Assembly: GCA_003586005.1 (NCBI GenBank) | Contig: NSKI01000020.1 | Location: forward strand, 1 to 40,336 | DNA: 40,336 nt | Source: Haloplasmatales bacterium 4B | GTDB taxonomy: Bacteria; Bacillota_I; Bacilli_A; Haloplasmatales; Haloplasmataceae | Direction of reading: 5' to 3' | Shown here: positions 4,981-20,516 of the stretch, in pieces | Layout of the letters: each line of letters opens with the position of its first letter | Numbering within the stretch: the stretch's first letter is position 1 | The notes under the pieces: generated by a model | Told to the model about the DNA's origin: nothing | Databases searched by the model: none | The model's input: the letters and a program-made list of their open reading frames with translations, nothing else | Translations under genes and position numbers: made by a program

Positions 4981-5478
4981 CTAATCCATAAATCTATTAA
5001 AATACTTTTTTACAAACTCATACGCTGTCATATTAAGACCTTTTGCTATAGCGTTCATCGTCGATAGGGATATATTTTCAAAATCAGCATTATTAGATAT
5101 TACTCTATACAATACTGATTTATCACAATCAGCATTTTTTGCTATTTTGTAAATTGTTGTTTCATTTTCAAGACAAATAATGTCTAACCAGTGGCATTTA
5201 TAAGTTTCTTGTAGTTCTTCCCATTTAGCATTATCAACTATTACCATTTTGCCATCTTCGTAATATGAAATTACTTGCATACCATCATTGATGGCATTTT
5301 CTAACGTTTCGGCATAATCGTCCCATCTGTTAGGACCATCCCAATTACTAAAATCATCATTTTCCTTTTCTGCATTAATAAAATCATACATAACTTTTTC
5401 ATCAACTTCAATCCATGTCCCGTTTGGGAGTAAAATCCCATCATAAGCGTTTGTGTTAATTAAAATTGCATTTTTCAT
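4981..5478 (-). CDS. Protein with C-terminal helix-turn-helix, candidate antitoxin or regulator
   Basis: 165 aa. The ATG at 5478 is preferred over an upstream TTG because AAAAGGAGG precedes it. The N-terminal ~90 residues are acidic with three Trp (DFSNWDGPNRWDDYAETL). The C-terminal ~55 residues (TIYKIAKNADCDKSVLYRVI...LSTMNAIAKGLN) match an XRE-type HTH pattern. It follows the ADP-ribosyltransferase-like gene by 48 bases, an arrangement seen in toxin-antitoxin modules with XRE antitoxins, although there the HTH is usually N-terminal. The pairing is inference. Confidence 0.5.
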   Translation of the reverse strand: MKNAILINTNAYDGILLPNGTWIEVDEKVMYDFINAEKENDDFSNWDGPNRWDDYAETLENAINDGMQVISYYEDGKMVIVDNAKWEELQETYKCHWLDIICLENETTIYKIAKNADCDKSVLYRVISNNADFENISLSTMNAIAKGLNMTAYEFVKKYFNRFMD

Positions 5479-5495
5479 ATTTCCTCCTTTTAGTT

Positions 5496-5516
5496 GCGGT
5501 TTTTTGGATAACCGCA
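5496..5516 (-). promoter_or_regulatory. Intergenic hairpin between the two toxin-antitoxin-like genes
   Basis: GCGGTT and AACCGC form a six-bp stem read on the reverse strand, directly before the AAAGGAGG site of the HTH gene and without a T run. It could tune translation or processing between the two genes. Confidence 0.45.
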
Positions 5517-5526
5517 AACCATATTA

Positions 5527-5832
5527 TTAATCATTATAGACTAAAATTGCTTTAACTAAATCATCAGTTTTAAAAAATCTTGCTTCGCCGTCATATTCAG
5601 GGTCTATAAATGTGTTATTACCATCAGATTCAAATTCAACAACTGCAATCTCCCAACCAGAGGAATTGTCTTTTGCAAAAGATATGGCATCTTTTAAATT
5701 ATCAAACCCAAATATTCCATTAGTTAAAAATCTATCAACTGAATAAGAATGTTTATATGTTGTTTGTGGTATTAACCCATTTTCTAAAATATCCTCTACG
5801 TTCTCTTGTAATGTCCCGTGATATAACTTCAT
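5527..5832 (-). CDS. ADP-ribosyltransferase-like protein (candidate toxin)
   Basis: 101 aa from the ATG at 5832, with GGGGAGAG upstream; a TTG at 5850 would add six residues but has no ribosome site. The start MKLYHGTLQENVEDILENGL is the signature beginning of ART/KptA-like folds (YHGT followed by a helix ending in ENGL); then a small fls-like strand, a KDAISFAKD helix and a short beta end with Asp and Glu residues. Compact ARTs modify nucleic acids or proteins and occur as toxins and phage effectors. The hammerhead ribozyme lies immediately upstream. The fold call is moderate; target and activity are unknown. Confidence 0.45.
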   Translation of the reverse strand: MKLYHGTLQENVEDILENGLIPQTTYKHSYSVDRFLTNGIFGFDNLKDAISFAKDNSSGWEIAVVEFESDGNNTFIDPEYDGEARFFKTDDLVKAILVYND

Positions 5833-5856
5833 TTTGTCTCTCCCCTTCAAATTTTT

Positions 5857-6300: not shown

Positions 6301-6329
6301 AAAAAGAAAAGACTAGATAAACTAGTCTT
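6301..6329 (-). terminator. Terminator of the partition operon
   Basis: Reverse strand AAGACTAG / CTAGTCTT (8-bp stem, five-base loop) followed by TTCTTTTT. The stem overlaps the stop codon of the RHH gene. Confidence 0.8.
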
Positions 6330-6609
6330 ACTTGATGAAACTGCTTAACAAACTATCTGCATCGTCGTCAACTATAAAATCATCACTAAAATCGTCTTCC
6401 TTTTTCTTGACTATAGTAGTTGTTCTCTGTTTTGAAAAAGTTATTTCATCCTTTAATTTATCTACTATGTCTTGCACAATGTTTTTGTTGTTTTGATAAA
6501 AATCAAATAAAAACTTTATTGCGGGCTTTGTACCTCTTTTTGAAATAAATTCGTACAATTCTCTTTCTTTGGCTGGGTTAATTCTAATCGGTTTTTGTAC
6601 GCTTTTCAT
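6328..6609 (-). CDS. Ribbon-helix-helix partition partner (ParR-like)
   Basis: 93 aa. The N-terminus (KSVQKPIRINPAKERELYEFI..RGTKPAIKFLFDFY) has the strand-helix-helix pattern of RHH proteins; the C-terminus is acidic (DDFSDDFIVDDDADSLLSSF), a likely filament-binding tail as in ParR proteins. It starts 8 bases after the actin-like gene. In type II plasmid partition ParR binds centromere repeats and couples them to ParM filaments. Assignment rests on fold pattern and pairing. Confidence 0.65.
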   Translation of the reverse strand: MKSVQKPIRINPAKERELYEFISKRGTKPAIKFLFDFYQNNKNIVQDIVDKLKDEITFSKQRTTTIVKKKEDDFSDDFIVDDDADSLLSSFIK

Positions 6610-6617
6610 ATTATCAC

Positions 6618-7643
6618 CTATATTTTATATAACTGTTTTGCGATTATGTAAAATCCGCATGCATTAGCAAGTAATGGGTTATCAACTAAGACTATTCTGT
6701 TATCATTTCCAAATGCTTTTCTAATTGACTTTTCTAAAGTCTTACTTCCTCCGCCAGTCAATATAATTTGATGATAAATCTCAAAATTATAGCCAAATTT
6801 ATCTAATGCGGATTTGATCTCATGAGCCATTTCATTTTGCAATCTTTCTTTAATTGATTTTACATTAAATTTTCCCCTAGGGAGTTCAAGTGTGTCTGTG
6901 TTCACAAGCATTTTGTCAAGCTCGTAAGGATTCTCGATTGCAGCAGACAAGCGACTGTCGGGATATTCTTTTTCAATAGCATTATATAGATTCGCAACAT
7001 AATCACTCATGGCTTTTGGTAAAGTCTTGTTGTTTCCTAATCCTTTAGCTGCTGATAATTCGACCATATCTGTTGTTCCATAACCAATATCTACTATCAA
7101 GAACTTTCGATTTTTTATGTTGCTATCTTCGGATTTCATTGTTCCATCATTATTATAAATAACGCTCCAAAGAGTACCAATCGGTTGACTAACAATAATA
7201 ACATCAGTGATAGAAAAAGATTTTCTTTCTTTCGTTTCTTTACAATATTCAATTTCAACTTCATATTCACCTAATAGATTTTTCTTCATCTTTTTAACCA
7301 ATTCCTCTCGTTCAGATAAACTAGCAGGCACCCCTGTAACTAGCTTAATTTCTTCGTTTTGAGTTGTTACTATATCACTTAATCCTATTGCAGTTTCTTT
7401 TTTAAAATTTTCACTGTAGTATCTTGATTCATCTTTTGATCCACTTCCTATACCTCCAACTAACCCTTTGATATAACGTTTATCTTTGTACGTATAAATT
7501 TTCTGATTTTGTAAAAGATTTGACAAAAGCCCCTCATTTACTTCTTGTAAAGTGTTTAAATAGTATGTAACTTTCCCATTCGCAACAATTTTTACTGAGG
7601 AGTTGCTATCCTCAAAACCCATTGCAGTTTTTTTAATGTTCAT
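6618..7643 (-). CDS. parM: ParM/StbA-like actin ATPase
   Basis: 341 aa, usual length for ParM/Alp proteins. Actin-fold landmarks: phosphate-1 region GFEDSNSSVK (residues 9-18), TGVPASL (103-109), phosphate-2 VDIGYGTTD (184-192) and adenosine motif LTGGG (295-299). Phosphate-1 is unusual, lacking the usual DxG. The start ATG overlaps the TGA of the upstream gene (ATGA). Such proteins polymerise with ATP to push sister plasmids or phage DNA apart. With the RHH gene it forms a plasmid partition pair inside a phage genome. Confidence 0.85.
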   Translation of the reverse strand: MNIKKTAMGFEDSNSSVKIVANGKVTYYLNTLQEVNEGLLSNLLQNQKIYTYKDKRYIKGLVGGIGSGSKDESRYYSENFKKETAIGLSDIVTTQNEEIKLVTGVPASLSEREELVKKMKKNLLGEYEVEIEYCKETKERKSFSITDVIIVSQPIGTLWSVIYNNDGTMKSEDSNIKNRKFLIVDIGYGTTDMVELSAAKGLGNNKTLPKAMSDYVANLYNAIEKEYPDSRLSAAIENPYELDKMLVNTDTLELPRGKFNVKSIKERLQNEMAHEIKSALDKFGYNFEIYHQIILTGGGSKTLEKSIRKAFGNDNRIVLVDNPLLANACGFYIIAKQLYKI

Positions 7644-7915
7644 AATTGCACTCTCCTTTTAGATTTTGAATTATTAAACCGACTTCCGCCTTTAAACATC
7701 CAAGCAGAATCATCCAGTAAAACAGTTTTTAAACCAGCTCTAACTGTAGCGGTTTTCTCTTTTTCTTTTTCATATTCATAATGCCCGTAAGCATATTTGT
7801 CATATTTTCTAGCCAAATTCTTTGTGATATGTTTTTTTAATCCGCCTGATAAATATTCGTAATAATTACCTGAATCGTCTTTAAAATAATAACTCCCCAA
7901 CCCAAATTCATACAT
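7640..7915 (-). CDS. Unknown first gene of the partition operon
   Basis: 91 aa from the ATG at 7915, preceded by AAAGGAGAGGATAGG; a longer frame further upstream lacks a ribosome site and crosses the promoter region. Many Tyr and Gly at the N-terminus (MYEFGLGSYYFKDDSGNYYE) and a basic C-terminus (SRFNNSKSKRRVQL) suggest a small nucleic-acid- or filament-associated protein. Translationally coupled to parM. No family recognised. Confidence 0.6.
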   Translation of the reverse strand: MYEFGLGSYYFKDDSGNYYEYLSGGLKKHITKNLARKYDKYAYGHYEYEKEKEKTATVRAGLKTVLLDDSAWMFKGGSRFNNSKSKRRVQL

Positions 7916-7965
7916 CCTATCCTCTCCTTTGTATATTTGTATATACGTTTTATACACTATATAGT

Positions 7966-7980
7966 ATTCGCGATGTGAAT
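7966..7980. promoter_or_regulatory. Operator, palindromic (ATTCGCGATGTGAAT)
   Basis: One mismatch from the perfect palindrome ATTCAC-N3-GTGAAT found at 8446. It lies between the divergent partition operon and HTH gene, in the leftward promoter zone. Confidence 0.6.
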
Positions 7981-7985
7981 AGATG

Positions 7986-8015
7986 TTGACTAAAAATATA
8001 CACAAAGTGAATAAT
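7986..8015 (+). promoter_or_regulatory. Promoter of the HTH regulator with embedded operator
   Basis: TTGACT, 18-base spacer, AATAAT. Operator ATACACAAAGTGAAT (7998-8012) sits between the two boxes, so the 65-aa HTH protein probably represses itself. Confidence 0.6.
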
Positions 8016-8059
8016 TTTGATAATATTTGCAGATAATAAAAATAAAAAGGAGAATGATC

Positions 8060-8257
8060 ATGCACTGGGTCGATAAAATATGTAGCGATTATGGTATTAG
8101 TATAAACGAACTCGCTAGAAGAGCAGGAATTAGCCCCGGAGCTTTAGGTAATTGCAAAGCTCGAGGGACAAATCTAGAAGATGTAAAATATTCAACAGTA
8201 GTAAAAATAGCAAGTGTATGCAGAACTACAGCTGATAAATTACTTAGAAGATATTAA
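8060..8257 (+). CDS. XRE-family HTH regulator of the partition/translocase region
   Basis: 65 aa from the ATG at 8060 (AAAAAGGAGA upstream at good spacing; an ATG six bases earlier is too close). Almost the whole protein is one HTH domain (YGISINELARRAGISPGALGNCKARG). Similar operators flank it on both sides and overlap its own promoter and that of the FtsK gene, so it most likely controls both operons. No C-terminal oligomerisation domain is present. Confidence 0.75.
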   Translation: MHWVDKICSDYGISINELARRAGISPGALGNCKARGTNLEDVKYSTVVKIASVCRTTADKLLRRY

Positions 8258-8262
8258 TTTGT

Positions 8263-8328
8263 ATAGCAAATGTATAGCACTGAGTTATAAATTAACTTAT
8301 TGTATTTACAAATGCTATACTTTTTTTT
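8263..8328 (+). terminator. Probable terminator after the HTH gene
   Basis: GTATAGCA occurs twice (about 8262 and 8272) and its complement TGCTATAC (8313-8320) is followed by eight T. The two left arms are alternatives for pairing with one right arm; the large loop makes this less certain than a standard terminator. Confidence 0.5.
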
Positions 8329-8336
8329 GTTTTATT

Positions 8337-8408
8337 CACTCACTTTCTTTTTTTATGTCTATTCACAAAGAAAATACACATTTTTGAGTGAGTGGGTGGG
8401 TGGGTGAG
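8337..8408. repeat. Inverted repeat and GTGG/GTGA tract upstream of the translocase gene
   Basis: CACTCACT (8337-8344) is complementary to AGTGAGTG (8387-8394), followed by a GTGGGTGGGTGGGTGAG tract. An imperfect operator (ATTCACAAAGAAAAT, 8361-8375) lies in the loop. This non-coding region could be a centromere-like site or a regulatory platform; the sequence alone does not decide. Confidence 0.45.
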
Positions 8409-8437
8409 TCAACATTTGTCACATTCTTGCATATAAT
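8409..8437 (+). promoter_or_regulatory. Promoter of the FtsK-like operon
   Basis: TCAACA, 17-base spacer, perfect TATAAT. The perfect operator at 8446-8460 covers the expected start site. Confidence 0.6.
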
Positions 8438-8445
8438 TAAGTAAC

Positions 8446-8460
8446 ATTCACAAAGTGAAT
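8446..8460. promoter_or_regulatory. Operator, perfect palindrome ATTCACAAAGTGAAT
   Basis: Six-bp arms around AAA, located just downstream of a TATAAT box and 18 bases before the ATG of the translocase gene. It defines the consensus for the sites at 7966, 7998 and 8361. Confidence 0.75.
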
Positions 8461-8477
8461 ATAAGAAAGGGGATAAA

Positions 8478-9764
8478 ATGAAAAACGTATTAATTAAAAA
8501 AATTAAATATCTTATAACTCAAAACAAATTAAAAGTAAAATTTAAAACCTATATAGAGTCAGAAGCTTATATTAAATTTGAGCTTGAAGGAACAGTAAAT
8601 AAAAATTTTGAAAATGAATTGAGGGGGTTATTGGGCTTTAATGTGTCTGTCACAAATGAAAACGGATATGTCAATATCATTTTTAGGAATCCGAATTTTA
8701 ATGAATTGCAATTATTAGAGTTTTTAAACAGTGATTTTTTTAATAACAGAAAAGAAATATTAAAATTTGCTTTAGGCGAAAATGTTAATGGAGAACGAAT
8801 CATAGGCGATCTAGAAAAAATGATACATTTGTTAGTAGCTGGCGAAACTGGTAGCGGGAAAAGTGTTTGTTTACATAATATTATTAATTCATTAGTTTAT
8901 GGTAATGATACTTCGATTTTAAGGCTTGTTTTAATGGATCTAAAGCGTAATGAATTTGTATGTTATGAATCACTAGGGCATTTGTTACGACCTGTTGTTT
9001 ACACTAAAGAAGTTGCTTTAAAGGTGTTGAAGTTTTTAACAGAAGAAATGAATAAAAGATTTGATTTGTTTAGAGAGAATAAATGCAGGAATATCAAAAC
9101 CTACAATCAGAAAAATGAACCTATACCATACATCGTTGTTATCATTGATGAATTTCAAAATTTAATTTTAAAAACTAAAGAAGCAGAAAATTACATAATC
9201 GATTTAGCAACCATGGCTCGTTCAGCGGGAATACATTTAGTTTTATCTACTCAAAAACCATCTGCCGACGTAGTAACATCGTTGATTAAAGCCAATATTC
9301 CAACACGTATTGCTTTTAATGTTTCAGATCACTATGACAGTCAAGTAATTTTAGGTGTTTCTGGAGCTGAAAAATTAAATAAAAAAGGAGATATGCTATT
9401 AAAGGATGAGGACGGAATTGAGCGCATTCAGTGTTGCTATATATCAGATGAAGATATAGATAATTTTATTCAAGATTATAACAAGAAAATTGATTTTAAT
9501 GAAATTAATATTTTTGAGGAAGAAGATTCATTTATCGACGATGAAAAGTTTGAGGCTGAAGATTATGAAAAATGCGTTGAAGAAGTAAAAAAACAAAATA
9601 GATGCTCGCATTGGATGATTAAAAAATTTTTGAATGTTGGAGACACAAAAGCTGAAAATATCATACAACAATTACAAGATAATAAGATAATAAGTATTGA
9701 GTTTAATGGATCAACAAAATCATATGATATTTTAAACCGTGAGGAGGGAAATTATGGCGATTAG
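8478..9764 (+). CDS. FtsK/SpoIIIE-family DNA translocase
   Basis: 428 aa, ATG with AAGAAAGGGG upstream. An N-terminal ~100-residue domain without membrane segments precedes the motor: Walker A GETGSGKS (122-129), Walker B VVIIDEF (D224, E225), then the LATMARSAGIHLVLSTQ and IPTRIAFNVSD segments typical of FtsK RecA-like motors. The last ~70 residues (SHWMIKKFLNVGDTKAENII) resemble the winged-helix gamma domain that reads DNA polarity. Lacking a membrane anchor, it looks like the soluble translocases of plasmids and integrative elements. It probably moves or resolves the circular phage DNA alongside the partition operon that shares its operators. Confidence 0.85.
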   Translation: MKNVLIKKIKYLITQNKLKVKFKTYIESEAYIKFELEGTVNKNFENELRGLLGFNVSVTNENGYVNIIFRNPNFNELQLLEFLNSDFFNNRKEILKFALGENVNGERIIGDLEKMIHLLVAGETGSGKSVCLHNIINSLVYGNDTSILRLVLMDLKRNEFVCYESLGHLLRPVVYTKEVALKVLKFLTEEMNKRFDLFRENKCRNIKTYNQKNEPIPYIVVIIDEFQNLILKTKEAENYIIDLATMARSAGIHLVLSTQKPSADVVTSLIKANIPTRIAFNVSDHYDSQVILGVSGAEKLNKKGDMLLKDEDGIERIQCCYISDEDIDNFIQDYNKKIDFNEINIFEEEDSFIDDEKFEAEDYEKCVEEVKKQNRCSHWMIKKFLNVGDTKAENIIQQLQDNKIISIEFNGSTKSYDILNREEGNYGD

Positions 9765-10032
9765 GGAAGATTTGAGAGGATACAATGTATCAATGAACGA
9801 CCATGAGTTAATACCACAGCACGCAGATTATGAGATTGTAGAGGATGATATTTATAGCGATTACCAAGATTATTTAAAATTCAAAAAATATCAACAAAAT
9901 AAAAAAAATAGATCGAGTCAGCAACCAGTCACTTTAAATTTGTATATACAAAAAGACGATACGGAACATGCTGGTCCAGGAGCCTTTTTAATAGCTTTAG
10001 GAATTATAATTGCAATAGGGTTAGCGTTATGA
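9754..10032 (+). CDS. Small C-terminally membrane-anchored protein
   Basis: 92 aa from the ATG at 9754, chosen for GAGGAGGGAAATT upstream; overlaps the translocase gene by 11 bases. Acidic/Tyr-rich N-terminal half, a basic linker and a hydrophobic C-terminal segment (AFLIALGIIIAIGLAL). It could tether the soluble translocase or partition complex to the membrane; that role is inference. Confidence 0.65.
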   Translation: MAIREDLRGYNVSMNDHELIPQHADYEIVEDDIYSDYQDYLKFKKYQQNKKNRSSQQPVTLNLYIQKDDTEHAGPGAFLIALGIIIAIGLAL

Positions 10033-10142
10033 AAAAGAAAGTTTTAGGGAAAAAGTTAACTGAGTTAATGGCGGAAAATACAGTAGATATAAAATGGATA
10101 TCTAAATCAAATCATGGAACGAATTTGGCACGAAAAAAGTAA
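10029..10142 (+). CDS. 37-aa basic peptide
   Basis: ATG overlaps the TGA of the previous gene (ATGA), giving MKKKVLGKKLTELMAENTV...HGTNLARKK. Very basic. Its last codons coincide with the left arm-type repeat of attP, so the reading frame may be partly fortuitous. Translational coupling is the main support. Confidence 0.4.
   Translation: MKKKVLGKKLTELMAENTVDIKWISKSNHGTNLARKK
10112..10138 (+). repeat. attP arm-type site, left
   Basis: ATGGAACGAATTTGGCACGA plus an A run; matches 24 of 27 bases of the repeat at 10299-10325 in the same orientation. The two copies bracket the tmRNA-like core, as arm sites of tyrosine integrases do. Confidence 0.6.
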
Positions 10143-10230: not shown

Positions 10231-10252
10231 GGAATTCCCGCCATCTCCACCA
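10231..10252 (+). other. attP: attP core: 3' end of a tmRNA-like gene
   Basis: This 22-base segment ends ...TCCCGCCATCTCCACCA: the T-arm, acceptor and CCA end typical of tmRNA in Firmicutes. No matching 5' part exists in the window, so it is an attachment-site fragment rather than an RNA gene. It lies next to the integrase 3' end and between two direct arm-type repeats. On integration it would restore the 3' end of host ssrA. The region 10143-10339 holds no gene otherwise. Confidence 0.8.
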
Positions 10253-10298
10253 ATAAAAAATAGCCTAGCAACAACTAGATTATTTTAAATAAAAATCA

Positions 10299-10325
10299 TC
10301 ATGGAATGAAGATGGCACGAAAAAA
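10299..10325 (+). repeat. attP arm-type site, right
   Basis: ATGGAATGAAGATGGCACGA plus an A run, the partner of 10112-10138, 15 bases from the integrase stop. Confidence 0.6.
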
Positions 10326-10339
10326 TATAAAAAATATAA

Positions 10340-11428
10340 TTAAACTGCGAGGTTGTCGATTAAATCGATGACCTCTTTTTCTTTGCTTGGGAACATATGA
10401 CTGTAGGTATTAAGTGTTTCGTTAACGTCCTTATGACCAAGTCGTTGAGAGACAATCAAGATCGATGCACCTTGATTTATAAGCAATGATGCATGTGAGT
10501 GTCTTAAGTCATGCACTTTAACTTTTTTGACGTTTGCCACTTGAATATACTTATTAAAATTTCTTGCTATTGTAGTCGTTGGTAAAGGTCTGTATACACC
10601 AAATACAAATGATTTTTCATTAAGACCTTCAAATTTTCTGCAATATTCATAATATTTTTCCATTTGTTTTTGTAATATTTTAGGCATTAAAATATGGCGT
10701 ATGGATTGGGCGTTTTTAGGGGTGGTTATTTCCCAACCACCCTTTTCTGATTTGTCCGCTACTGTTTTTTCAATACTTACAATCCCGGTTTTAAAATTAA
10801 TATCTTCCCAGGCAAGAGCCATTGCTTCGCCTTTTCGAGTTCCCATGTAATATAAAAACATAAAGAATGTGAGCCACTGTATATCGTCCACAACAGTAAT
10901 AAACTTATTAAATTCATCATAAATCCAGAATTGTATTTTTTTAGTTACAGTTGCTGGTTTTTTAAAATTACCTACTTTTTTGCATGGATTATCTCTTAAA
11001 CCAAAATTTTTTACTCCATAGTTTAATATCGCGGAAAGATTAGTATATATCTTAGACAGATACTCGTAAGAATAACCTTTAGTTAACATTTCTTTTTGCC
11101 AATTTTGAATATGTAATGTTGTTATTTTATTAGCACTATAACTTTCAAAAAAAGGTATTATATGTAGATTAATTAAATTTTCTTTTGAATAATAACTTGA
11201 ATATTTAACTTTTGTTTTAGCGTATTCTGAATATTTATTAGCAAGATCCTTAAATTTTATATTCGAGGTAGTTGTTGTCAAATCAATACTTGCTAAATGT
11301 TCTGCGTCCTGAGCCTCTTTTTTTGTTTTAAACCCTCGTTTTTTTAGGGTTTTATATTCGCCTTTAATATTTGTATAGTTAATTTGAAAATACCATGTCC
11401 CGCGCTGTTTGTCTTTGTATGCTGGCAT
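10340..11428 (-). CDS. int: Tyrosine-recombinase integrase
   Basis: 362 aa from the ATG at 11428, which has GAGAGGTG at proper distance; a GTG nine bases earlier overlaps that site. N-terminal AP2-like arm-binding domain (YKDKQRGTWYFQI, GFKTKKEA), central SAM-like core-binding domain, then the catalytic domain: Arg198 (GTRKGEA), His306/Arg309 (HDLRHSH), His332 (LGH) and Tyr342 (TYSHMF). All expected residues are present, so it should be active. It lies last in the lysogeny operon and next to attP. Confidence 0.97.
   Translation of the reverse strand: MPAYKDKQRGTWYFQINYTNIKGEYKTLKKRGFKTKKEAQDAEHLASIDLTTTTSNIKFKDLANKYSEYAKTKVKYSSYYSKENLINLHIIPFFESYSANKITTLHIQNWQKEMLTKGYSYEYLSKIYTNLSAILNYGVKNFGLRDNPCKKVGNFKKPATVTKKIQFWIYDEFNKFITVVDDIQWLTFFMFLYYMGTRKGEAMALAWEDINFKTGIVSIEKTVADKSEKGGWEITTPKNAQSIRHILMPKILQKQMEKYYEYCRKFEGLNEKSFVFGVYRPLPTTTIARNFNKYIQVANVKKVKVHDLRHSHASLLINQGASILIVSQRLGHKDVNETLNTYSHMFPSKEKEVIDLIDNLAV
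10349..10380 (+). terminator. Forward-strand terminator inside the 3' end of the integrase gene
   Basis: GAGGTTGTCGAT and ATCGATGACCTC form a 12-bp stem (two G-T pairs) with a three-base loop, followed by TTTTTCTTT on the plus strand. It would stop transcripts arriving from the translocase operon through attP. The same bases encode the integrase C-terminus on the other strand. Confidence 0.8.
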
Positions 11429-11900
11429 AGTAGTCACCTCTCATGCTGTAAATTCTGCTTTTTATCCCCTCAATTCGTTTTTGAGCTATTTCTTGGCTGA
11501 CATAGAAATAATCAGCTACTTTATTCACGGTTTTTAATCCTTTGAGGATATCAATTAGAAAATAAGGAATAGCTAAATACTGTACTAAATAATTTGCTTT
11601 CATTTCAAAATATTTTAACTGAAAATTGTCTAAATATTGATAGGCTATATGCTCTTGAATATGATGTGAAAGTTCATGCAAGAACTGGCTGTATTGATTT
11701 CTTGCTGACTCTCTATCGTTAATTATAATAACTGTATTTTTGTCATAAAACAATATTGTACTATCTATTGGCAGATATTTTACTTTAACTTCAAAAGCAT
11801 TTGCTAGATCATATATGTTTAAATGCCACAATGATGTTACCCCATGATCCAACAAAATATTTGACGCCATAACTTCAACGTTTGTTGGTACATATAACAT
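11379..11900 (-). CDS. ImmA/IrrE-type metallopeptidase
   Basis: 173 aa. HELSH at residues 75-79 is the zinc-binding HExxH motif, within the QFLHELSHHIQEH segment; a downstream FEMKANYLVQYL helix supplies the third ligand region. This family cleaves phage and ICE repressors after DNA damage. It is placed between the TerB_N gene and integrase, overlapping the integrase start by 50 bases, so it should be co-expressed with the repressor it probably cleaves. Confidence 0.9.
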   Translation of the reverse strand: MLYVPTNVEVMASNILLDHGVTSLWHLNIYDLANAFEVKVKYLPIDSTILFYDKNTVIIINDRESARNQYSQFLHELSHHIQEHIAYQYLDNFQLKYFEMKANYLVQYLAIPYFLIDILKGLKTVNKVADYFYVSQEIAQKRIEGIKSRIYSMRGDYYASIQRQTARDMVFSN

Positions 11901-11927
11901 ATAATTTTACCCCTCTTAAAATTTAAT

Positions 11928-12797
11928 CTACGTTTTAAAACGCCCCTTACGCTTTATTACATTGTGTGTTTCTTCTAGTATTTTGTATAATTTTTTTTGA
12001 ATATCTTGGTTATAAAAGATATTTTCTTTTACGTAATATTGTGGATTGAACGAGTAATTTGCAAATCCTAACATTGATGTTTTCGGTGATTTGTTTAAAT
12101 CGTCCTGAGTGATTGGGAATGTTGCTTGTCCAAATTGTTTAGTTAATACTTCCCCCAAAGTATTAATAAATTTGTCATAGTCTTTTTTTAGATATCGTTT
12201 ATTTTTCCATCCGGTACAATTTATATTTTTTAAAATTGAATTAGGACTCAATTCCTTATTTTGATAACAATACATCAGGTCCAGAAATGATGTATTAGGC
12301 AGCTGCACGATTTTATCTATCATCTCAGCTCTTTTATTTATTAAACACGCCAGCACCATAGCGTTAGCTGAATATTCTTGAAATGAATTACATTTATGCC
12401 AGTTTCTTAACTTGTTAATCATTTTAAATGCTTCATCGAATTTGCCATAAACTAAATGGCGTTCTAATCCATAATAGTATATAAATACATATCCAAAGTC
12501 AACCGGTTTAGTGATATCACACAACCATTTTAAATAATATAGTCTTTGCCCCGGTGTTAGTCCCTCATAGCTTGGCCAGTAAAATAAACTACCATCATCG
12601 ATATATTTTGATACTTCCATGTTAATGGAAATTGCAGAAGGTTCATTGTCGGATACATTTAGATATTTGATGAATGCACCTTCTTTTTTTATTTCATGGA
12701 TGTTTTTTAATGGTCCATCATAGAACCACAATAAGCTAATTACCTCATCTGGTATTTTAGTTAGTGCTTGTCCTAATTCATTTTTTATCGGCATCAT
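11928..12797 (-). CDS. TerB N-terminal-domain protein of the lysogeny module
   Basis: 289 aa. The segment YWPSYEGLTPGQRLYYLKWL (residues about 73-92) followed by DFGYVFIYYYGLERHL matches the TerB_N domain, which occurs in Firmicutes prophage lysogeny regions and in tellurite/stress gene clusters. The rest is helical with no enzyme motif. It overlaps the repressor gene by 20 bases, so they are co-translated. Its exact role in lysogeny is unknown. Confidence 0.75.
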   Translation of the reverse strand: MMPIKNELGQALTKIPDEVISLLWFYDGPLKNIHEIKKEGAFIKYLNVSDNEPSAISINMEVSKYIDDGSLFYWPSYEGLTPGQRLYYLKWLCDITKPVDFGYVFIYYYGLERHLVYGKFDEAFKMINKLRNWHKCNSFQEYSANAMVLACLINKRAEMIDKIVQLPNTSFLDLMYCYQNKELSPNSILKNINCTGWKNKRYLKKDYDKFINTLGEVLTKQFGQATFPITQDDLNKSPKTSMLGFANYSFNPQYYVKENIFYNQDIQKKLYKILEETHNVIKRKGRFKT

Positions 12798-13146
12798 CTT
12801 CTTTCATGGAATCAGCTACAGCTTTAAGTATTTTTAATTGCTCTGGAGTCAGTTTTCTATCATCATAGAATAGCACACCAACATTCCCCAGCTCAGTTTT
12901 TATCATGTCTTTTCTTTGATTGAAATCGTAAGTATCAGATTCCTCTGATACATAATTATTGTCTAGAAGATAATCTAACGAAACGTTGTAGAAGTTAGCT
13001 AATTTTTTTAGAGTATCGACATCAGGCATACTTTTATCGCTTTCATATTGCGAATATGTCGATTTAGCAACTCTTAAAAATTCAACTAGGTCTTTTTGTT
13101 GTAGATTTCGACTTAGTCTTAATCTTTTTAATATAGTTCCTAACAT
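12778..13146 (-). CDS. CI-like phage repressor
   Basis: 122 aa. N-terminal XRE HTH (LRLSRNLQQKDLVEFLRVAKSTYSQYESDKSMPD, residues about 9-43) then a linker and a short C-terminal tail (LTPEQLKILKAVADSM). There is no LexA-type autoprotease domain; inactivation is expected to come from the ImmA-like protease two genes downstream. It is first in the leftward operon and faces the operator cluster. Confidence 0.88.
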   Translation of the reverse strand: MLGTILKRLRLSRNLQQKDLVEFLRVAKSTYSQYESDKSMPDVDTLKKLANFYNVSLDYLLDNNYVSEESDTYDFNQRKDMIKTELGNVGVLFYDDRKLTPEQLKILKAVADSMKEDDADKK

Positions 13147-19682: not shown

Positions 19683-20516
19683 ATGGCGATATATAGACAG
19701 ATTCATATAAGTTTTTGGCAAGATGAATTTGTTTTAAATTTAACACCTGAAGAAAAGTATTTTTATATTTATCTTATGACAAACAGTAAAACTTCTCAAT
19801 GTGGAGTATATCAAATACCTAAAAAGGTTATGGAGTTAGAAACCGGTTATAATCGTGAAACAATTGATAAATTGCTTAATCGTTTTATCGAATATAAAAA
19901 GATTGAATATAACGAAGAAACAAGCGAAGTCAATTTAGTTAATTGGTTAAAGTACAATTCATCTAAAAGCCCTAAAGTTATTTCGTGTATTAAAAAAGAA
20001 TTAGATATAATTAAATTTTTGCCATTTAAACAATACATTATAGATAGTCTATCTATAGACTATGAAAAGACTATAGGGAAGAATAAGAATAATAACAAGA
20101 ATAATAAAAATAAAAATAATAATAAAAATAACGAAATCACAATCGAAAACATTATTGATGTTATTCAAAAAGAAATTAATCCTAACATTAATTCATTTGA
20201 ATTACAAATGATCGAAACTTGGTTTAATGAATGGAACAATAAAGAAATCATATTAGAAGCAATAAAAGAAACAGCGTTAAACAAAGCTACTTCATTAAAA
20301 TATACAGATACAATTTTAAGAAATTGGGAAAATCAAAATGTTAATTCAATTGAAAATGTAAATCGGATCAAGGCAAACTATTCTAATTTCAAAGGCAAAA
20401 AAGAAAGAGTTGTCGAGACGCCAAGTTGGATGTTAAAACACCAGCAACAAAATAAACAACAATCAGATGAGGAAGTTAACCAAGAAGAGTTAAAGACATT
20501 ATTAAATAGTTTTTAG
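19683..20516 (+). CDS. DnaD-like replication initiator
   Basis: 277 aa from the ATG at 19683 (GGGAGGTAGGTGATAGG upstream). N-terminal ~120 residues are winged-helix (QIHISFWQDEFVLNLTPEEKYFYIYL, CGVYQIPKKVMELETGYNRETI). An Asn/Lys low-complexity linker follows, then a DnaD/DnaB_2-type C-terminal domain (FELQMIETWFNEWNNKEIILEAIKETALNK...YTDTILRNW). Such proteins load helicase at the phage origin. The linker-encoding DNA carries a candidate origin. Confidence 0.88.
   Translation: MAIYRQIHISFWQDEFVLNLTPEEKYFYIYLMTNSKTSQCGVYQIPKKVMELETGYNRETIDKLLNRFIEYKKIEYNEETSEVNLVNWLKYNSSKSPKVISCIKKELDIIKFLPFKQYIIDSLSIDYEKTIGKNKNNNKNNKNKNNNKNNEITIENIIDVIQKEINPNINSFELQMIETWFNEWNNKEIILEAIKETALNKATSLKYTDTILRNWENQNVNSIENVNRIKANYSNFKGKKERVVETPSWMLKHQQQNKQQSDEEVNQEELKTLLNSF
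20044..20135. other. Candidate replication origin inside the initiator gene
   Basis: A near-perfect palindrome, ATAGTCTAT-CT-ATAGACTAT (20044-20063), is followed by another AGACTATAG (20068-20076) and then ~55 bases of almost pure A/T with no T-rich strand bias breaks. Repeats plus an easily melted tract within the initiator gene are the usual phage origin layout. Evidence is pattern only. Confidence 0.5.

Follow-up and report, generated by a model that had tools for sequence, protein, structure and literature searches.

A temperate phage of a Haloplasma relative with a probable plasmid mode and a ParM partition cassette adjoining an FtsK-family motor

Temperate tailed phages with a circular plasmid prophage state and neighbouring genes for a ParM-like protein and a ribbon-helix-helix (RHH) protein are established in the Bacillus cereus group (B83, IEBH; PMC8026635, PMC6669507); several have Xer-type recombinases, and the papers make no mention of FtsK. 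Episomal prophages of Staphylococcus aureus are integrase-bearing phages seen both integrated and extrachromosomally (PMC6036120, which does not mention ParM or partition), and phage-plasmids are described as typically, although not absolutely, lacking integrases (PMC12977533). The stretch of DNA analysed here (the window; 40,336 nucleotides, contig NSKI01000020.1 of Haloplasmatales bacterium 4B, assembly GCA_003586005.1) contains a tailed phage that resembles the B83/IEBH-type phages in its adjacent ParM-like and RHH-like genes and probable circular plasmid state, and the S. aureus phages in being an integrase-bearing phage found as a circle. It differs from the former in having an integrase, a phage attachment site (attP) matching a transfer-messenger RNA (tmRNA) gene and an arm encoding an FtsK-family motor and a tail-anchored protein divergent from parM, and from the latter in having a partition cassette. 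Phages with ParM and RHH genes are already known, and the new parts are the conserved FtsK/tail-anchor arm and the integrase; no paper was found in which an FtsK arm belongs to a ParM cassette, with literature coverage incomplete.

The window spans the entire contig C17 of the host genome (G000; 2.26 Mb, 77 contigs), that of a relative of Haloplasma, a wall-less-type marine bacterium. Genomes of the same family include G005 (recorded as Haloplasma contractile metagenome-assembled genome (MAG) B5_bin.1) and that of cold-seep strain zrk4 (G006); the loci compared below are L040 (G005:C17), L041 (G005:C63) and L042 and L043 (the ends of zrk4 plasmid CP074574.1). Because the first 134 bases of the window reappear exactly at its end and a 579-amino acid (aa) tail-type reading frame is open across the join, it represents a closed circle of 40,202 bp with an arbitrary cut point. 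Judged by gene content (terminase, portal, head, scaffold, RecT, anti-repressor and CI-like genes) this is a complete-looking temperate tailed phage, the terminase, portal and head genes being the structural and packaging genes characteristic of a phage-plasmid.

The host tmRNA gene (C77:77736–78085, confirmed with ARAGORN) is intact and its bacterial attachment site (attB) is empty; the attP core is found in G000 only in this gene and in the phage, and neither attL nor attR, nor any phage–chromosome junction, was found in the G000 assembly. The evidence for an extrachromosomal circle, a circular contig beside an empty attB, is assembly evidence only. The sequenced phage is a free circle and its integration site is vacant; although able to integrate, it therefore probably spends at least some of its time as a plasmid. 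It is referred to as a phage with a plasmid mode rather than as a standard phage-plasmid because the integrase and attP, typically lacking from phage-plasmids, are present. The original prediction for this DNA had suggested a phage-plasmid, and the closed contig, the empty attB without attL or attR, and the occurrence of the same module on a 98-kb circular plasmid support this. It had also raised the possibility that the module acts in resolving circular DNA ahead of integration or in packaging, for which no specific support was found; the phage encodes a terminase, portal and capsid of its own, and the module is missing from a related prophage in which these proteins are 73–87% identical. At the end of the range originally reported for the module, a 37-aa basic open reading frame (ORF; 10029–10142) overlaps an integrase arm site and is probably not a gene, although it may encode an excisionase.

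The explanation preferred here, and held to be probable, is that this temperate tailed phage has two modes of inheritance, integration at the tmRNA gene and a free circle, and that an actin-type partition cassette, linked to a split FtsK tethered to the membrane, stabilises the plasmid mode. The module would keep the free phage circle in dividing cells: the RHH-like protein would bind a centromere in the module and link it to ParM filaments, which would push sister circles apart as in a type II (ParMRC-like) system; the helix-turn-helix (HTH) protein would repress both arms through the palindromes before each; and the FtsK-family motor, docked at the membrane by the tail-anchored protein, would pump phage DNA from the closing division site or help to separate multimers. 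A phage family with an integrase, attachment sites used in relatives and a full partition cassette offers a direct route to when and why a phage picks the chromosome or a plasmid. A more tentative proposal, on balance doubtful, is that a single machine joining ParM partition to a two-chain, tail-anchored FtsK arose on mobile elements in wall-less-type bacteria, which have a soluble FtsK of their own, and that it serves a phage alternating between chromosomal and plasmid states; if true, a two-chain tethered motor would join filament-driven partition to septum clearance within one mobile cassette.

The module consists of six genes in a head-to-head layout, with the 91-aa ORF, parM and the RHH-like gene on the minus strand from 7915, and the HTH, motor and tail-anchored protein genes on the plus strand from 8060 (Table 1). 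The ParM-like actin, divergent HTH protein, FtsK/SpoIIIE motor, membrane neighbour with its predicted transmembrane (TM) segment, integrase and attP are all present where the original prediction had put them. The proposed RHH partner of ParM is present as a small conserved gene directly downstream of parM, but its fold was confirmed neither by profiles nor by AlphaFold, and the 91-aa ORF ahead of ParM is a part of the module that had been missed.

Table 1. Features of the partition/FtsK module and the adjoining integration region, in window coordinates.
Feature	Coordinates	Strand	Notes
Small RHH-like protein, 93 aa, ParR-like adaptor candidate	6328..6609	-	Directly downstream of parM; same place in other elements
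ParM-type actin-like ATPase, 341 aa	6618..7643	-	Pfam ALP_N 7e-11, MreB-like_C 2e-8; phrog_691 'partition protein' 3.9e-43; NCBIfam match
91-aa ORF, first gene of parM operon	7640..7915	-	Place taken in L040/L041 by a charged 96-aa protein
Divergent promoter region	7916..8059	.	Two near-palindromic operator-like sites: TTCGCGATGTGAA 7967-7979, TACACAAAGTGAA 7999-8011
Small HTH regulator, 65 aa	8060..8257	+	HTH_26 4e-5; homologue at matching place in other elements
Candidate cis site, inverted tetramer-box arrays	8334..8409	.	TCACTCAC (8336-8343) facing GAGTGAGTGGGTGGGTGGGTGAGT (8386-8409)
Perfect operator-like palindrome TTCACAAAGTGAA	8447..8459	.	Upstream of ftsK
FtsK/SpoIIIE-family motor, 428 aa, putative gamma-like winged helix, no TM segment	8478..9764	+	Motor match 2e-39
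C-tail-anchored membrane protein, 92 aa	9754..10032	+	Start overlaps ftsK stop
Arm-type integrase site, P' side	10111..10138	.	89% identical to 10298-10325 arm
attP core TCCCGCCATCTCCACCA, 17 nt	10236..10252	.	Identical to 3' end of host tmRNA gene
Arm-type integrase site, P side	10298..10325	.	Repeat partner of 10111-10138
Tyrosine integrase	10340..11437	-	phrog_1 6.4e-75, Phage_integrase 1.2e-22

The ParM protein retains the nucleotide-binding motifs VDIGYGTTD and TGGGS, and its AlphaFold model (predicted local distance difference test score, pLDDT, 81.5) has pSK41 ParM (3js6) as its top fold match (Z 27.6, 2.8 Å over 297 residues); it is closest to the ParMs of pSK41, pCBH and other plasmids, and the assignment, drawn from profiles and model, is secure. 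As in the type II ParMRC systems of pSK41 and pCBH, a small gene lies directly downstream of that for the actin-like ATPase, but the window module adds the 91-aa ORF and the divergent HTH/FtsK/tail-anchor operon, and its centromere is only a candidate. A phage/plasmid ParM of Paenibacillus larvae (API480; NZ_CP019718.1) is 28% identical and likewise has a small gene downstream, on an element that also carries phage genes, but no FtsK arm adjoins it. The RHH-like protein is 63–66% identical to its L040 and L041 homologues and 42% identical to that of the zrk4 plasmid. Its RHH-like pattern is an N-terminal strand followed by two helices, as judged by eye; no convincing Pfam, PHROG or PDB profile family match was found, AlphaFold gave only a poor model (pLDDT 53), and from sequence pattern and position an RHH fold is likely. 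For the 91-aa ORF, the longer frame 7640–8065 has no family match in Pfam, PHROG or NCBIfam, and no family match was found for the L040 counterpart.

The motor contains Walker A (GETGSGKS) and Walker B (VVIIDEF) motifs of a RecA-type motor and is securely assigned by sequence to the FtsK/SpoIIIE family. It shares the motor domain and Walker motifs, and possibly a gamma-like winged helix, with FtsK, SpoIIIE and SftA, but lacks an N-terminal membrane domain and a long linker. None of the three mobile FtsKs tested has a TM segment, which sits instead on the adjacent protein, and the motor is filed only as FtsK/SpoIIIE-family because the N-terminal membrane domain is not on the same chain. Matches to FtsK_gamma at the C-terminus (5.7e-6 in the window, 5.4e-7 in L041 and 0.094 in L040) are correctly placed alignments that all fall under the Pfam curated cut-off. 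The sole predicted TM segment of the tail-anchored protein is its last ~20 residues, an extreme C-terminal position common to 4/4 homologues, and in the window, L040 and L041 the start of its gene lies next to the ftsK stop or overlaps it. The conserved pair suggests a membrane-tethered, two-chain DNA motor. The only clear FtsK relative encoded by the host G000 is a soluble, 787-aa SftA-like protein with alpha, beta and gamma domains, no N-terminal membrane segments by hydropathy and no TM segment outside the motor. The mobile FtsK does not retain the GYNRAAR stretch found in the host gamma domain, and so probably reads DNA signals different from those of the host FtsK, if any. Chromosomal FtsKs of the family hosts are generally ~770–930 aa and SftA-like (G000:C58:103073–104152 and other genomes), with no N-terminal membrane segment apparent in two others read.

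Palindromes of the form TTCACnnnGTGAA at 7967, 7999 and 8447 are all of the genome's sites with one mismatch or fewer (shuffling expects 1.5 genome-wide); at two mismatches the motif is no more frequent genome-wide than by chance, and it stands out only by the clustering of one-mismatch sites. In L040 a different palindrome (CTACTCATTGCGTAG type) occupies the equivalent positions ahead of the two operons, and this placement is consistent with the HTH protein acting as repressor of both arms. In 4/4 elements the interval from the HTH gene to the FtsK gene contains a comparable inverted, 4-bp-periodic array, the observed score being reached by 0/200 shuffles in each, and the window array (8334–8409) is a possible centromere or motor-loading site. 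L040 and L041 have similar boxes, RHH proteins 80% and ParMs 93% identical, and FtsKs just 41% identical; because the boxes, RHH proteins and ParMs are alike while the FtsKs diverge, this one contrast favours the RHH protein as the candidate binder of the boxes. In the zrk4 plasmid (L042:9406–9587), related ~20-bp direct repeats (TGTAGTTAATTTGTATTG type) are situated directly upstream of parM, after an RHH-like 126-aa ORF; these possibly constitute a separate centromere and temper that preference.

The gene order and head-to-head layout recur in L040, in L041 and in CP074574.1, a complete circular plasmid of 98 kb from zrk4, all in one family, the relatives of Haloplasma. Identities to the window copy are 39–40% for ParM, 42–66% for the RHH protein, 39–51% for FtsK and 29–32% for the tail-anchored protein, and the layout is more than chance because it recurs in three elements whose ParMs are so divergent. 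The sample is small, with four copies, two of them from one MAG. Such a ParM is present in 3/395 genomes across the class and 2/392 across the phylum (overlapping, non-exhaustive samples), all in this family, and IMG/VR scans with ParM, RHH and FtsK, as single proteins and as alignments, gave no relatives. In CP074574.1 the HTH gene and parM are separated by 8 kb that include conjugation genes, and ftsK spans the record origin; at the join of the plasmid ends (L042:1–974, L043:13479–13904) ftsK is out of frame by one base, probably reflecting a circularisation error in the record. Other candidates were set aside: FtsK matches on Anoxybacillus and Latilactobacillus plasmids are full-length, chromosomal-type FtsKs, Enterococcus faecium pELF encodes a ParM but has no annotated FtsK nearby, and in B. 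carboniphilus an FtsK beside a replication-relaxation protein is ~7 kb from ParM, which is another arrangement.

Relatives show integration and reduction. Contigs G005:C37 and C17 together make up a sister phage whose module is in the corresponding position, but whose integrase is different and whose attachment core is beside tpiA. C37 has exactly its last 55 nt in common with chromosomal contig C7, and C17 its first 55 nt in common with C57, which gives both junctions of the integrated phage. The contigs nonetheless end precisely at the edges of the core, and from this assembly behaviour there was probably a second path as well, most simply the excised attP. Contig G005:C63 (L041) carries a decayed prophage with a relative of the window integrase that is interrupted by an insertion sequence (IS). 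With an attP-like region and arms on both sides it was considered as an episome, which was rejected, as an integrase C-terminus is connected via the core with the tmRNA gene on G005:C70 and the IS interrupts the integrase. Beside this remnant, an AAA ATPase gene and a weakly RloB-like gene (L041:367–2215) form a possible defence pair. A third related prophage (zrk4 chromosome, ~2,740,320–2,779,034) has a capsid 87%, a portal 85% and a terminase 73% identical to those of the window phage, with a serine recombinase and without the module. In the window's own host, two tpiA-side cores 1.95 kb apart (L094; G000:C37:29494–31464) flank what is left of the tail-anchored gene, a decayed fragment with 86% DNA identity and a relic of an earlier element at the tpiA site. 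A 9.25-kb element between two tpiA cores in zrk4 (L093; chromosome 3126315–3135585) keeps an integrase, IrrE and late tail-end genes without phage structural genes or the module; L041 is reduced in a similar way, and this recurrent shrinkage to a similar gene set may be more than mere decay.

Support for the plasmid mode comes from the closed circle, the empty attB, the same module on plasmid CP074574.1 and the plasmid-like ParM, together with the lack of the module from the zrk4 prophage fixed in the chromosome with a serine recombinase. Several points weigh against it. The replication initiator found in the window phage is phage-type only (DnaB_2/DnaD-like) and no classical plasmid Rep was found there, and, as G000 may be either an isolate or a MAG, free virion DNA could be the source of the circle. 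The centromere is no more than a candidate, and the RHH fold no more than likely. Both module carriers in G005, the C63 element and the C37/C17 phage, are integrated, so carriage of the module does not force episomal life. These integrated relatives and the phage-type replication genes, along with an integrase with a complete attP and the ParM-like protein of the very large Bacillus phage G, also fit an ordinary integrating phage whose circle is induced or infecting phage DNA in the sample and whose ParM and FtsK act in the lytic cycle by positioning or disentangling replicating DNA. This is nonetheless unlikely, as attB and attP are both assembled unbroken in G000, as against the branch in G005, the same module is found on a plasmid with conjugation genes, and a related phage does without it.

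The FtsK-like protein would have a different role if the module served transfer, as a double-stranded DNA coupling protein of the TcpA/TraB type, paired with a membrane protein for mobilisation. A PDB match to 'DNA translocase coupling protein' (6o1w–6o1z, ~1e-33) and the conjugation genes adjoining the plasmid copy point this way, but true FtsK matches better (8e-84) and with a putative gamma-like winged helix, profile searches of the phage proteins found no relaxase, and the zrk4 plasmid encodes its own conjugative DNA-transfer protein, making this a very improbable account. It is just as improbable that the partition genes and the FtsK arm are independent cargo adjoining by chance: although on the zrk4 plasmid the 8-kb conjugation block parts the arms and direct repeats lie immediately upstream of parM, both G005 copies keep identical order and orientation and similar spacing despite FtsKs only 39–48% identical to that of the window.

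Elsewhere in the phage genome, three 18-bp tandem repeats at 20079–20132, inside the DnaB_2/DnaD-type replication gene, are a candidate phage origin. Genes for a CI-like repressor, a TerB_N-domain protein and an IrrE-like metalloprotease (11379–13146, minus strand) form a block with the integrase that is kept in G005:C37 and C63, the TerB_N protein being an unusual member of a lysogeny block. Beside the module, two adjoining small genes (4981–5850, minus strand), one with a weak PARP/ADP-ribosyltransferase-type match (1.9e-4) and the other with a C-terminal HTH, could be a toxin–antitoxin or addiction pair; the HTH part is also present in the sister phage (G005:C37).

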